In this document: piece after piece, positions 42,958 through 48,066 of the stretch
Numbering within the stretch: the stretch's first letter is position 1
How the letters are laid out: each line of letters begins with the position of its first letter
Assembly (NCBI RefSeq): GCF_024655635.1
Contig: NZ_JANLGI010000015.1
Span: 62,001-126,000 of the forward strand
Direction of reading: 5' to 3'
From: Allobosea sp. 47.2.35
Lineage (GTDB): Bacteria; Pseudomonadota; Alphaproteobacteria; Rhizobiales; Beijerinckiaceae
Length of the DNA: 64,000 bases
Position numbers and translations under genes: made by a program
The notes under the pieces: model-generated
What the model was told of the DNA's origin: nothing
The model's input: the letters and a program-made list of their open reading frames with translations, nothing else
Database searches by the model: none

Positions 42958-44352
42958 TCAGGCCGGGCCGAGCATCAGCTCGGGCTTGACCGTGGCGTCG
43001 AAGAGTTCGGCCTCGACGCCGGCCTTCAGGGCTTCCTCGCGCAAGGTCGTGCCGTTGTGATGCGCGGCCTTGGCGATGCCGGCGGCCTTGTCGTAGCCGA
43101 TCGCGGGTGCCAGCGCCGTCACCAGCATCAGCGAGCGCGAGAGCAGCTCCTTGAGTTGCGTCTCGTTGGCCTCGATGCCCTCGACGCAGTTGACGCGGAA
43201 GCTTTCGGCGGCGTCGGCGAGAAGCCGCACGGACTGCAGGAAGGCGGCGGCGATCACCGGCTTGAAGACATTGAGCTCGAAATGGCCCTGGCTGGCGGCG
43301 AAGCCGACCGTCGCCTGGTTGCCGTGGACCTGGGTCGCGACCATGGTCAGCGCCTCGGCCTGGGTCGGGTTGACCTTGCCCGGCATGATCGAGGAACCCG
43401 GCTCGTTCTCCGGCAGGCTGATCTCGCCGAGACCCGAGCGCGGGCCGGAGCCCATCAGGCGGATGTCGTTGGCGATCTTGAACAGGTCGGAAGCGAGCGC
43501 GGCGAGCGCGCCATGGGCGGCGGCGAGCGCGCCATGGCTCGCGAGCGCCTCGAACTTGTTCTCGGCGCTGCGGAAGGGCAGGCCGGTCAGTGTCGCGGCT
43601 TCCTTGGCGAAGAAGGCGGCGAAATCCGGATGGGCGTTGAGGCCGGTGCCGACGGCGGTGCCGCCCTGCGCCAGCGCATAGAGCCCACCGAGAGCCGCCT
43701 CGATCCGGCCGATGCCGAGATGGAGCTGCATCGCATAGCCGGAGAATTCCTGGCCGAGCGTGACCGGGGTCGCATCCTGCAGATGGGTGCGGCCGATCTT
43801 GACGAGATGCCTGAAGGCCTCGGCCTTGGCGTTCAGCGCCTTCTCAAGGCCGCGCAGCGCGGGCAGCAGCCGGCGCGTGATCTCCAGCACGGCGGCGATA
43901 TGCATCGCGGTCGGGAAGGAATCGTTCGATGACTGGCCGCGATTGACGTGATCGTTGGGGTGGACCGGGCTCTTGGCGCCGAGGCCGGCACCGAGCAGTT
44001 CATTGGCGCGGTTCGCCAGAACCTCGTTGGCGTTCATGTTCGACTGGGTGCCGGAACCGGTCTGCCAGATCACCAGCGGGAAATGCCCGTCGAACTTGCC
44101 GGCGAGCGCCTCGTCGGCCGCATGGGCGATGGCGCCGGCGACGCGCTGGTCGAGCAGGCCGAGCTTGGCGTTGACATGGGCGGCGGCCTTCTTGACCAGC
44201 ACCAGCGCATGGACGAGCGGCAGCGGCATGCGCTCGCTCTCGCCGCCGATGCGGAAATTCTCGAGGGAACGCTGGGTCTGCGCGCCCCAGTATCGATCCG
44301 CCGGCACGGCGATCGGGCCGAAGGAATCGGTTTCGGTGCGCGTCTCGGTCAT
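42958..44352 (-). CDS. fumC: class II fumarate hydratase
   Basis: A 464-residue homotetrameric, iron-free fumarase of the TCA cycle. Length matches E. coli FumC (467). The N-terminal [13 protein letters not shown] and W-G-A-Q-T-Q-R-S-L are standard. S-S-N-D-S-F-P-T, the T-H-L-Q-D-A-T-P catalytic region and the signature loop [11 protein letters not shown] are present. It is 11 bp downstream of sspB, on the same strand. Start ATG at 44350-44352. Confidence 0.97.
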
Positions 44353-44363
44353 GGCGTCCGTCG

Positions 44364-44936
44364 TCAGGGCTTCTTGCGGAAGGAATCGAGGCTGACCACT
44401 TCGGCGCTGCCTCGGCTTTCATCGCCCTCGGTGGCCGGCTCCGCTTTCGCGGATGCGGCGGCAGGATCGGCGGCAGGCGTCTTGCCCTTTGCGGCGGGAA
44501 GGGCGGCTGGCACGATCTTGGCCGGTGCGGGGGCCGGCTCGGCGGGCTCAGGCTCTGCCGAAACGCTGTCTTCCGCCTGGTCCTGCGCCTCGAATTTCAG
44601 GCCGAACTGGACGGAGGGGTCGAAGAAGGTCGAGATCGCGTCGAAGGGCACGAGCAGCCGCTCCGGCACGCCGGAGAAGGACAGGCCGACCTCGAAGGAA
44701 TGCTCGCCGACGCTCAGGTCCCAGAACTGATGCTGGAGAACGATGGTCATTTCGTCGGGATGCTTCTCGCGCAGGCGCTGCGACAGGCGCACGCCCGGAG
44801 CCCCCGTGCGGAAGGTCACGTAGAAATGGTGCTCGCCCGGCAGCCCGTCGCGCGCGGCCTCCGTCAGGATCTTGCGGACCACGCCCTTCAGCGCGTCCTG
44901 CACCATGAGATCGTAACGAAGAACATCCTTGGACAT
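44364..44936 (-). CDS. sspB: SspB family ClpXP adaptor (alpha type)
   Basis: A 190-residue adaptor that binds ssrA-tagged proteins and delivers them to ClpXP. The N-terminal substrate domain (about 1-120) has [10 protein letters not shown] and H-H-F-Y-V-T-F-R-T, then the [12 protein letters not shown] strands. A long Ala/Pro/Glu-rich linker follows, and the extreme C terminus S-L-D-S-F-R-K-K is the XB-like ClpX-docking tail. The gene lies just downstream of the ssrA gene on the same strand, separated by the group II intron, and just upstream of fumC. Confidence 0.92.
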
Positions 44937-45043
44937 CGAGTCGTGGTTTCCGCTTGTTGCGTTCCGGCGGGAACAGCCGGCAGGCCGTCAGAAAAAGAAG
45001 TGGTCGAGTAGGTGAGCTACATTACTGTAGCCCACCCCTCTCA

Positions 45044-45077
45044 GAACCGTGCAGGCGGGTTTCCCCACACACGGCTC
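45044..45077 (-). ncRNA. group II intron domain V (catalytic hairpin)
   Basis: A 34-nt RNA, minus strand, starting GAGCCGTGTG, with the GAAA tetraloop-like tip (GGGGAAACC) and ending GCACGGTTC. The catalytic AGC triad (bases 2-4) and the paired GTT are intact, so the ribozyme core looks functional. Confidence 0.92.
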
Positions 45078-45083
45078 AAGCAC

Positions 45084-46571
45084 CTAGCTGGTCGCCGCTC
45101 GCCTTAATTTCAACCGCCGCGACGCCCGAGCCATCCAATAATGGCGCAGCTCCGGGTCGAACGGTGAAGCACGTCCTTCCACCTTAATCCAACGCTGGAT
45201 AGAGAAGAAGTCGTGTTTGAGCAATGCCCGCTTGCCGTCGTTTAGCTGCCATCCCCGCCCACCCGCGCCATTGGTGAAGTACCGGCGCTGAACCCACTTG
45301 TGTGGCTTCATCGGGTGTCGTCGCTTCGCCCATTTGTAGAGCATCGGCCACATGGCGTCGTCAATTTTGGCAAATACCCGCTTAGAGACGACATATCGGT
45401 AGTAATTGACCCATCCTCGGATGACTGGGTTGAGGTGGCGGATCAGCCCTGCTGTGGGCTGCTGCCGATGGGACCGCACGTATTCCGACAAGGCCCTGAG
45501 GTGTCCCAGTACCTTCGTCTTTTGCGGCTTGATCAACACTTTCCCGGACATATCTCTGACGTGGAACCCCAGGAAGTCAAAGCCCTCGGAGATATGGACG
45601 ACCTTGGTCTTGGCTTCACTGAGTTGCAGGCCGCGGCTGGCCAGGAAGTTGGCGAGCCGTGGAAGGGCATACTGTTCCGCAACCTCCCGTGTCGGACAGA
45701 GCACTACAAAGTCGTCGGCATATCGAATGAGGTGCATGCCGCGATTCATCCCCCTTCTTCGGCTTGGCAACTTCGGCCTTCCGTCTTGGTTTTCGGCCTC
45801 GAAGAGGCGCTCCATTCCGGTGAGGGCGATGTTGGCAAGGAGAGGGGAAATGATCCCGCCTTGAGGCGTTCCCGCGTCGCTTTCCGTTCGTTTACCGAGC
45901 TCGACGACTCCGGCTTTAAGCCATCGTCGCACTACTTCTCTGAGGTGCTCGGGCACAAGGCTGAGAAGGGCCTCGTGGTCGATGTTGTCAAAACACCCGC
46001 TGATGTCGGCATCCACGACCCACTGGCTAGCTCCGTCCTGGTTTAGACCAAGCCAGATTGCTTTGATGGCGTCATGGGCTGATCGGCCCGGCCTGAAACC
46101 GTATGAGTTAGCTTCAAATCGGCTTTCCCATTCGGGCTCCAGGGCAAGCTTCACGATTGCCTGCATCACCCTGTCTTTGACGGTCGGAATCCCGAGGGGC
46201 CGCATCTTCCCATTGCTCTTCGGGATATAGACCCGCCGAACTGGGGAGGGGCGGTAACCGTCGAGGTCGAGACCGCTCTTGAGGAGTTCCATGCGCTGGG
46301 AGTCGCTTGAGCAGACAAAGCCGTCTACGCCGGCGGTGTTCTTCCCAGCATTGAGTTGGGTCACCTGTCGGATCGCCAGCACCTTGGCATGGAATGATCG
46401 GACCATGAGCTTTTGAAGGTTACGAACCCTCGCATGCTCTCGGTTTTTCGCAGCTCGGAAGATGCGCTCTTGCAGTCGGCGTACTTCTCGTTCCACCGTG
46501 GCCCAGTCGATCTGGTCCCACGCCTTCGTGAGTCGTCCTTCTTTCCGTTCGGCAGAGCCGTCAAACGTCAT
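45084..46571 (-). CDS. ltrA: group II intron reverse transcriptase/maturase
   Basis: A 495-residue intron-encoded protein. The N-terminal RVT-N part is about 10-90. Reverse transcriptase fingers and palm follow, with Y-I-P-K-S-N-G-K-M-R-P-L-G-I-P (115-129), A-D-I-S-G-C-F-D-N-I (188-197), T-P-Q-G-G-I-I-S-P-L (235-244) and the catalytic Y-A-D-D at 284-287. The maturase (X) domain is about 355-430, with G-W-V-N-Y-Y-R-Y. No HNH endonuclease Cys/His set is seen at the C terminus, so mobility would rely on other priming. The frame is intact with no stop or frameshift, implying recent or maintained activity. Confidence 0.93.
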   Translation of the reverse strand: MTFDGSAERKEGRLTKAWDQIDWATVEREVRRLQERIFRAAKNREHARVRNLQKLMVRSFHAKVLAIRQVTQLNAGKNTAGVDGFVCSSDSQRMELLKSGLDLDGYRPSPVRRVYIPKSNGKMRPLGIPTVKDRVMQAIVKLALEPEWESRFEANSYGFRPGRSAHDAIKAIWLGLNQDGASQWVVDADISGCFDNIDHEALLSLVPEHLREVVRRWLKAGVVELGKRTESDAGTPQGGIISPLLANIALTGMERLFEAENQDGRPKLPSRRRGMNRGMHLIRYADDFVVLCPTREVAEQYALPRLANFLASRGLQLSEAKTKVVHISEGFDFLGFHVRDMSGKVLIKPQKTKVLGHLRALSEYVRSHRQQPTAGLIRHLNPVIRGWVNYYRYVVSKRVFAKIDDAMWPMLYKWAKRRHPMKPHKWVQRRYFTNGAGGRGWQLNDGKRALLKHDFFSIQRWIKVEGRASPFDPELRHYWMARASRRLKLRRAATS

Positions 46572-47166
46572 AGCAGGTTAGGCCGATACGTTAGCTTCGC
46601 TTCCGTTGGTACCCGTCAGAAGTCTGCACCCTTTCGGGTCGGTTATACCCGTTTCCGGACCTATCCCGCCGATTACAGGCGGGCCTTCGCTTTCTCTGAC
46701 ATCCTTTACCCCCTGCATCGTCCCCCTCCCTTACGGTTGGGATACCGCTTGCGACGGGATGCAATGGGCTTACCCGGTTCCCCCATTTCCAGAATGTGAC
46801 GGGGTTAGGTGCTGCCTCTTAGCCCGGTGGGGACAACAGGTGCTGAGCAGACGAGCTCCATCGCCGGCTCACGCCCCACTCACCTTTTGGTCACGGCCTG
46901 TCAGCCTTATTTGGCCGTTTCAACATGACGAGCCTAATGGCAGTTAGCTTGTGTTCACCATACCCGTCTTCCCTCAGGCTATGGCCGGCTTAGGCTGCCA
47001 GCCAATCGCCCTTTGTCTCCGAGTCTCAGCGTATTGGATTACTCCGTTACGCCCTCGGATAGGGACATCTGAGCACCGCAGAGTCTCCGACAGCGAACCG
47101 TGGAGCACTAGAAAAGAGGGCCTTCGGGGTCAAAAACCTTTCGGTTTCTGACCCCTCCGGTCGAAC

Positions 47167-47525
47167 GAGGCTTCTGTTGCCAGGCGCCTCCGAGCCCCGC
47201 CTTACGTCGCTAAACGGAAGGACTTAGGTTTGGGAACCAGCACCGCTCACGCGGCGACAGCAACCCGAGCATTGTTGTCGTTGGCAACTATGCAATGGCC
47301 CGATAACGGCGGAACCATTCCGAGCAAAAGGAAGACCTTTACACCCTCGTCGATCCTATTTCGCCCCCGCCGCAGCCCTGCAACCGCTCGGCTGCACGTT
47401 CCTGCTGCTCGCGCTGCAGGGCTGGGGTGGAGGCGCCGGGTACCGCCCCCGGGTCCGAAAGGCTTATTACGTAATCCGTTTATCGCCATAGCCGTTCTTG
47501 CGAGCGGCACTCCCGAATATAGGGA
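47167..47525 (-). ncRNA. ssrA: permuted (two-piece) transfer-messenger RNA
   Basis: The acceptor piece (upper coordinates, ending near 47427) has a T arm CCGGG-GGCGGTA-CCCGG and 3' strand CGCCTCC-A. A processed spacer follows, stabilised by CAGCCCTGCA/TGCAGGGCTG. The coding piece starts GGGGGCG at 47368, which pairs with CGCCTCC as a 7-bp acceptor stem with one G-U. The tag reading frame at 47247-47285 reads ANDNNARVAVAA and a stop, a classic alphaproteobacterial tag. The 3' helix GGAGGC...GCCTC closes at about 47167. The terminal CCA is not fully encoded (ACCC). The outer boundaries are approximate. Confidence 0.9.
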
Positions 47526-47586
47526 ACCCCGCGGCGTTGGGAAAGGGTTCTCACGCTTTTTCGACAAGGACTGCGGTTTCCCTGCC

Positions 47587-47850
47587 TCAATTCAGAATGC
47601 GTCCATTTCGGATGTCGATATCGAGGCTCATCTCGTCGTCCTCGGCGGTGCGGCCGGCGACCTCCCAGCGGTCGTCCAGGCGGACGATCTCCTCGACATG
47701 GACGAGCCCGGCGCTCCAGGCGATGTCGCGGGCCTGCCGCTCCGAGATCGTCGCGTTGGCATAGGTTTCCTCGGCATGCGCCGACAGCACGATCAGGGTG
47801 TTGAGAGCGAGCGCGGCAAGCAAGCGTGTCGGAGCGTTCAGGGTCGGCAT
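47587..47850 (-). CDS. small secreted PepSY-like protein
   Basis: An 87-residue protein with a clear signal peptide (R-L-L-A-A-L-A-L-N-T-L-I-V-L, cleavage after A-H-A). The mature part is one short domain: A-R-D-I-A-W-S-A-G-L-V-H-V-E-E-I, then R-L-D-D-R-W-E-V-A-G-R-T and D-I-D-I-R-N-G-R-I-L, the alternation seen in PepSY-type domains. I assign PepSY only tentatively. Start ATG at 47848-47850; a GTG at 47865 would add five residues. It is divergent from thyA and 62 bp from ssrA. Confidence 0.72.
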   Translation of the reverse strand: MPTLNAPTRLLAALALNTLIVLSAHAEETYANATISERQARDIAWSAGLVHVEEIVRLDDRWEVAGRTAEDDEMSLDIDIRNGRILN

Positions 47851-48066
47851 ATCGACTATCCCCACGAATCAAGCGCGCGATGAGCGGCGCCGATTGGGGC
47901 GGGTTTGCGGACGGGGATGCCTCACGACGTTTCGCATTCGCGTGAGGAGTCAGGCTCCCGCCACACCCTGACAGGGTCTGCGGCAAAGGCTGGGGATGCC
48001 TGCCTGCCGGGCAGGGGCCAAGCCGCCCGCGAGCCGCTATAGTCGCGCGCCTTCCAGAGAGTCGCC

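Follow-up and report, generated by a model that had tools for sequence, protein, structure and literature searches.

We analysed a stretch of 64,000 nucleotides from Allobosea sp. 47.2.35 (contig NZ_JANLGI010000015.1), called the window below at its full length, in which ssrA, the gene of the transfer-messenger RNA (tmRNA) carrying the degradation tag, is followed by a group II intron and by sspB, the gene of the ClpXP adaptor. The features lie on the minus strand throughout, in the order permuted tmRNA gene, intron, sspB and fumC (Table 1). A previous sequence-only reading had taken the tag gene and sspB for consecutive genes on one strand, which ARAGORN, RF01849 and PF04386 bore out, and had placed the intron exactly between them. 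The group II intron is real; however, it interrupts the 3' end of ssrA and the predicted terminator of that gene, the intron guides pairing with the hairpin found there.

Table 1. Features of the ssrA-sspB locus, in window coordinates
Feature	Position	Strand	Evidence
ssrA promoter-like site TTCCCA-16-TATATT	47516..47543	-	sigma70-like scan; same site in relatives L147 and L005
ssrA, alpha-type permuted tmRNA (Rfam extent)	47163..47548	-	RF01849, ARAGORN
tmRNA acceptor piece	47426..47507	-	82-nt extent inferred from S. meliloti
tmRNA coding piece as far as the intron, 202 bases	47167..47368	-	S. meliloti 3' piece of 204 nt
Tag frame ANDNNARVAVAA and stop	47247..47285	-	ARAGORN
Conserved 3'-terminal hairpin of ssrA (GGAGG...CCTC), predicted stem of the terminator	47167..47191	-	model alignment, relatives, fold
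Intron-binding site 2, IBS2 (GGCAACAG)	47174..47181	-	pairing with intron guide, sister intron
Intron-binding site 1, IBS1 (GCCTC)	47167..47171	-	pairing with intron guide, sister intron
Group II intron, 2164 bases	45003..47166	-	empty sites in relatives; sister intron
Exon-binding site 2, EBS2 (CUGUUGUC)	46832..46839	-	pairing with exon, sister intron
Exon-binding site 1, EBS1 (GAGGC)	46814..46818	-	pairing with exon, sister intron
Reverse transcriptase (RT)/maturase, 495 aa, no HNH endonuclease domain found	45084..46571	-	domain matches
Intron domains 5 and 6 (D5-D6); unpaired A, branch-point candidate, at 45009	45003..45079	-	RF00029, fold
T-rich stretch CACTTCTTTTT, directly 3' of the hairpin in intron-free relatives	44992..45002	-	comparison with relatives
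sspB, ClpXP adaptor	44364..44936	-	PF04386, PDB matches
fumC, 11 bases after sspB	42958..44352	-	open reading frame (ORF) list, NCBIfam

The permuted tmRNA gene was the sole tmRNA gene called by ARAGORN (47156-47520, tag at 47285-47247), and the Rfam covariance-model search matched RF01849 over model positions 1-355 with 278 bits, for a gathering threshold of 50. It resembles the alphaproteobacterial two-piece tmRNAs in this whole-model match, in the acceptor-before-coding order and in its ANDN-type tag ANDNNARVAVAA, which ends with AA before the stop and was also found in 15 of the 18 same-genus loci run through ARAGORN. It differs from them in the last four model positions (CACU; 47166-47163), displaced by intron letters, and in an unencoded CCA. 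At the acceptor piece (47426), the window reads CCACCCC; CCA is encoded in 37 of the 43 distinct acceptor ends obtained by motif search.

The boundaries of the intron were obtained by comparison with intron-free relatives of the same genus, in which GGAGGCGCCTGGCAACAGAAGCCTC is directly followed by CAC and the T-rich stretch. The relatives read GGCAACAGAAGCCTC|CACTTCTTTTT, and the window carries 2164 extra bases at the bar. Over its first 20 bases after the site, the window is matched by 3 of 40 distinct ssrA ends recovered by motif search. A sister intron, 73% identical in DNA over 2.1 kb, was detected on plasmid p1 of Rhizobium sp. NZLR1 (L210), where it starts with the same first ten bases, GTTCGACCGG, in other flanks. 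Because the empty sites in relatives and the shared 5' start of the sister intron agree, we set the intron at 47166-45003. The sequence-only reading had to be corrected on this point: it had proposed a junction of 47109 to 45002, taking the first 58 intron bases (47166-47109) for ssrA flank. A 5' end at 47108, where GTGCTCC resembles the usual GUGYG start, is ruled out by the intron-free relatives, which lack 47166-47109, and by the sister intron, inside which GTGCTCCACGG at 47108 falls; the corrected junction is 47167|45002. The intron appears to have entered between the conserved ssrA hairpin and the following T-rich stretch, a placement well supported by these comparisons. The insertion removes the outermost pair of the hairpin and shifts the T-stretch 2.2 kb away.

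The two intron guides pair with the exon just upstream of this point, EBS2 with positions -15 to -8 in 8 pairs, one of them G-U, and EBS1 with positions -5 to -1 in 5 pairs, so that their targets are the loop and the 3' strand of the conserved hairpin ending ssrA. When the first 600 intron bases were shuffled by mononucleotides, the same two guides were recovered in 22 of 5000 shuffles, the criterion having been set after seeing them. The letters at the guide positions differ in the NZLR1 sister and pair with its own, different target: its EBS2 pairs at 7 of 8 positions, and its EBS1, for which five offsets were tried, at 5 of 5 in the best one; both helices include G-U pairs. The sister thus resembles the window intron in its DNA and first ten bases and differs in its target, a gene having a SIS domain as its 3' part instead of a tmRNA end; the 63-residue 5' part of this host gene had no Pfam match. 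The 15-base target of the window intron was present in 36 of the 40 distinct ssrA ends, an upper estimate since the motif search for ssrA ends required CTGGCAACAG and CCTC and gave no match in 19 fetched loci. A guided insertion into the end of ssrA is, on this pairing evidence, a well supported mechanism: EBS2 and EBS1 would pair with the hairpin ending ssrA, and the intron would retro-insert between hairpin and T-rich stretch.

The intron is present as a single copy in its own genome. The hairpin joined to the intron start was found in 1 of 397 genomes of the order, namely the window's own, and, with one mismatch allowed, in 2 of 385 genomes of the class including its own; the second match (G211) lies on contig C277, the ssrA of that genome being on C19. 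No other genome of these 397 and 385 (overlapping sets, own genome included) was found to have this intron at the ssrA site. A recent insertion would fit the apparently intact state of the RT ORF, of D5-D6 and of both exon edges.

The RT/maturase ORF matched TIGR04416 with 374 bits (cut-off 300) and comprises the RVT_N, RVT_1 and GIIM domains; it is open over its full length, with YADD present. D5-D6 matched RF00029 with 63.3 bits (gathering threshold 40), fold far better than shuffles (z -7.39) and expose an unpaired A 7 bases from the 3' end. The elements that characterise a homing-type intron are present, namely D5 and D6, an RT with YADD and a maturase (X) domain, and the EBS1-IBS1 and EBS2-IBS2 pairings at the site. 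The best relative of the protein among solved RTs was 6me0 (408 bits, E 3.5e-121, residues 15-483 of 495 aligned); LtrA and the GsI-IIC enzyme 6ar1 reached 160 and 140 bits, respectively. The structure table describes 6me0 as 'Maturase reverse transcriptase', and we take it to be TeI4h, of CL type and group IIB. The window intron is similar to that of 6me0 in the RT alignment, in a D5 above the gathering threshold and in having EBS1 and EBS2. It differs in its location at the end of a tmRNA gene and in its protein, which ends before the HNH domain of relatives such as P0012: the latter (63% identical, 552 residues) continues to an HNH domain at 499-544, the window protein stops at 495 and the Pfam domain scan gave no HNH match in it. 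No HNH domain is listed either for the closest database relatives, P0002-P0009 (68-75%). In the available sections of PMC4424553, CL introns without endonuclease are described as a known minority, HNH not being universal in CL. The best reading is thus a group II intron of homing type (IIB/CL-like) probably devoid of endonuclease, the class being assigned by scores against solved RTs and not by a tree.

RT matches were detected in 28 of 149 genomes of the family, its own included, the best other one having 214 bits and 41% identity, with shorter pieces up to 48%; a scan of viral contigs yielded 7 RT relatives at 32-45%. The best two RT matches in the named genome collection, from a scan that finds close relatives only, came from Lokiarchaeota metagenome-assembled genomes (L062 and L063; 51% and 50%), an odd spread for an intron of this type. 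Group I introns also interrupt tmRNA genes; they belong to another intron class and occupy another position. The window offers what seems to be an endonuclease-less, homing-type example within a non-coding RNA gene that is highly conserved, where the insertion point should leave the mature RNA unharmed.

Downstream of the intron, the sspB ORF contains the SspB domain PF04386 (173.5 bits for a cut-off of 27) and matches three solved proteins, 2nys (E 1.8e-48), 2qas and 2qaz; the NCBIfam scan assigned no family to it. It is like these alphaproteobacterial SspB proteins over the tag-binding domain and shares with 2nys a C-terminal tail of 14 residues. Nothing notable differs in the window protein, which is unusual only in its upstream DNA. 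Between intron and sspB stand 66 bases of ordinary leader (45002-44937), at least the first 20 of which are identical to some intron-free relatives, and sspB, its leader and fumC are all intact.

To measure the linkage of the two genes, RF01849 and PF04386 were searched in the same genomes and their positions compared, distances being taken between model matches. A near set comprised 61 genomes (the window's own, 36 of the same genus and 24 of the same order), 58 with both genes, and a class set 133 genomes from 132 families, 118 with both genes over the cut-off; the window's own genome was scored as a miss in both. In 50 of the 58 near-set genomes, ssrA is followed on its own strand by sspB at a distance of 0-500 bases (median 95.5), and this close order recurred in 81 of the 118 class genomes (median 101 bases). 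The 8 near-set misses consisted of six genomes with the genes on different contigs, one with the genes 16.9 kb apart and the window itself (2256 bases). Of the 37 class-set misses, 21 had the genes on separate contigs; the remaining 16 had them on a single contig, in 10 cases (window included) on the same strand within 4 kb. As a control pair, fumC was located at most 500 bases downstream of sspB in 18 of the 77 class genomes with both; 43 of these 77 pairs were on one contig and 31 within 4 kb. From these counts, the ssrA-sspB neighbourhood is widespread and is kept better than sspB-fumC, the next pair along. The physical linkage of tag and tag reader put forward by the sequence-only reading therefore stands and extends well beyond this genome, its proposed refutation, relatives with the two genes far apart, being contradicted by 50 of 58 near and 81 of 118 class genomes.

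The best explanation appears to be an old, conserved ssrA-sspB neighbourhood, which the intron would have interrupted but not broken. The linkage is a more general and more useful result than the intron: judging from this conservation, the genes of the degradation-tag RNA and of the ClpXP adaptor seem to be kept linked in many alphaproteobacteria, separated by a hairpin and by about 100 bases (median). A 2007 study of small RNAs in alphaproteobacteria states that both tmRNA-flanking genes are conserved and calls a functional association uncertain (PMC2245857, available text); its main text, as accessible, nowhere contains sspB. Neither the linkage nor a group II intron at ssrA appeared in any title or abstract beginning of the literature searched, nor in the accessible portions of PMC8119881, PMC2245857, PMC3985003, PMC4424553, PMC2573895, PMC13153191, PMC4223743 and PMC5042515; the linkage may already be in print, key subscription papers lying outside this scope.

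Further intron insertions were considered as a cause of the wide ssrA-sspB gaps and rejected, as no Rfam group II match reached the gathering threshold in the 11 loci checked (L190-L200; class genomes G212, G216, G246, G288 and G311 were left out). Long ORFs occur in the gap of L190 and L192, according to the ORF lists of these two loci. In L199 (G046), ssrA and sspB lie on one strand at 16.9 kb from each other, perhaps due to an island inserted at the ssrA end; Rfam gave no group II intron match in this gap.

The position of the intron bears on tmRNA maturation. The coding piece measures 202 bases from its first G (47368) to the insertion point, and the 3' piece of S. meliloti tmRNA measures 204 nt on Northern blots (PMC2245857, available text). 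If the lengths are alike in the two species, the intron would lie at most a few bases from the point where the mature coding piece ends, and the tmRNA would stay intact.

As for the effect on expression, the relatives have a mean of 6.7 T in the 14 bases after the ssrA hairpin, and the hairpin region folds with -16.4 kcal/mol in a relative (46 nt) against -11.9 kcal/mol for the window side (36 nt). The ssrA site is the sole sigma70-like site detected in 44900-47900 (1 found, 0.8 expected by shuffling); in L147 and L005 it was also found once each, for 0.2 and 0.1 expected, respectively. With the predicted intrinsic terminator interrupted, polymerase starting at the ssrA promoter is expected to read on across the intron, reaching sspB and probably fumC. 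Hairpin and T-stretch would be reunited by splicing only in RNA that has already been synthesised, too late to stop transcription. We infer these expression effects from the anatomy of the locus, which points more to a split ssrA terminator with read-through into sspB than to the simple uncoupling also envisaged by the sequence-only reading. Taken together, the favoured reading, with a probability of roughly 0.7, is the retro-insertion of an endonuclease-less homing-type intron, its RT resembling 6me0 (TeI4h), at the end of ssrA; the insertion would probably leave the tmRNA unharmed and would split the predicted terminator, so that ssrA, intron and sspB would form one transcript.

Several observations weigh against this interpretation. 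Elsewhere in the intron, another stretch can by chance form 9 pairs with the same exon, two of them G-U. The T-rich character of the sequence 3' of the hairpin is weak in some relatives, such as L026 and L158; the hairpin itself folds no better than shuffles (z -1.25 when intact, 0.31 in the window), and in none of L147, L005 and L016 is it called by the terminator scan. According to the available text of PMC2245857, two stem-loops make up the tmRNA terminator of S. meliloti, and GC-rich bacteria often lack T-tracts, so that the split of the terminator may not matter. Transcription might also stop at the 13-pair hairpin that the intron itself carries (47155-47126), and the promoter scan is crude and could miss a promoter of sspB.

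The last two points could combine into an insulated insertion, in which the hairpin at the intron start or the remaining ssrA hairpin still terminates and sspB has its own promoter, the intron only adding distance and leaving the coupling unaffected. The 13-pair hairpin and a terminator-like site at 47138-47119 speak for such an insulation, as does the longer ssrA-sspB spacer of some relatives, which could hold a promoter. However, the NZLR1 sister has a different sequence at the place of the hairpin, as for a variable intron arm and not for a retained terminator; the number of terminator-like sites is close to that in shuffles (4 found, 3.4 expected); and the crude scan found no sigma70-like site beside sspB in the window, L005 and L016. 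We consider this insulation unlikely on balance, and the hairpin 47155-47126 was retained as a separate ssrA terminator only within it. Still less probable is a polar effect, whereby long unspliced RNA, RT translation and Rho would lower the expression of sspB and fumC and thereby prolong the life of tagged proteins in this strain: the ssrA promoter is now separated from sspB by 2164 bases that include a 495-codon ORF, but sspB, its leader and fumC are intact, which argues only against a long-term loss.

It is quite improbable that the intron has become a working part of the tmRNA-adaptor unit. In that case, the first splicing step, or a hydrolysis of the 5' splice site, would cut at the last base of the mature coding piece or beside it and thereby generate the tmRNA 3' terminus; with the terminator split, sspB would be driven from the ssrA promoter, and a single ribozyme-processed transcript would supply both the tag RNA and its reader. 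Finally, a class C (IIC) intron with terminators as its normal target was rejected as highly improbable: the insertion beside a terminator-like hairpin of the host gene and the lack of a recognisable endonuclease domain recall the class C introns, for which insertion at intrinsic terminators is described while other lineages home (PMC4424553, available sections), but the RT scores 408 bits to 6me0 and 140 to GsI-IIC 6ar1 (by score, no tree), EBS2-IBS2 pairing is present and the 73% identical sister sits in a coding gene, the one with the SIS-domain 3' part. Whether read-through from the ssrA promoter feeds sspB is a simple question, for which this naturally occurring insertion offers a test.

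Additional tmRNA genes were observed in other genomes. Tandem tmRNA pairs stand just upstream of sspB in two genomes of the same genus (L144 1001-1858 in G027 and L142 1823-2689 in G024), the sspB-proximal copies having lower scores, 184 and 172 bits against 252 and 252 for the other copies; the sspB-proximal ones were not called by ARAGORN, and in L144 the tag and 3' hairpin look intact. Second, divergent tmRNA genes were found in L146 (1923-2343; G009, contig C1, 709 kb) and L143 (1781-2140; G024, contig C2, 759 kb), with the tags VNDNNAGYALAA and ANDNHAAGYAVAA, respectively. They are located on a smaller large contig and are perhaps borne by a plasmid or chromid.

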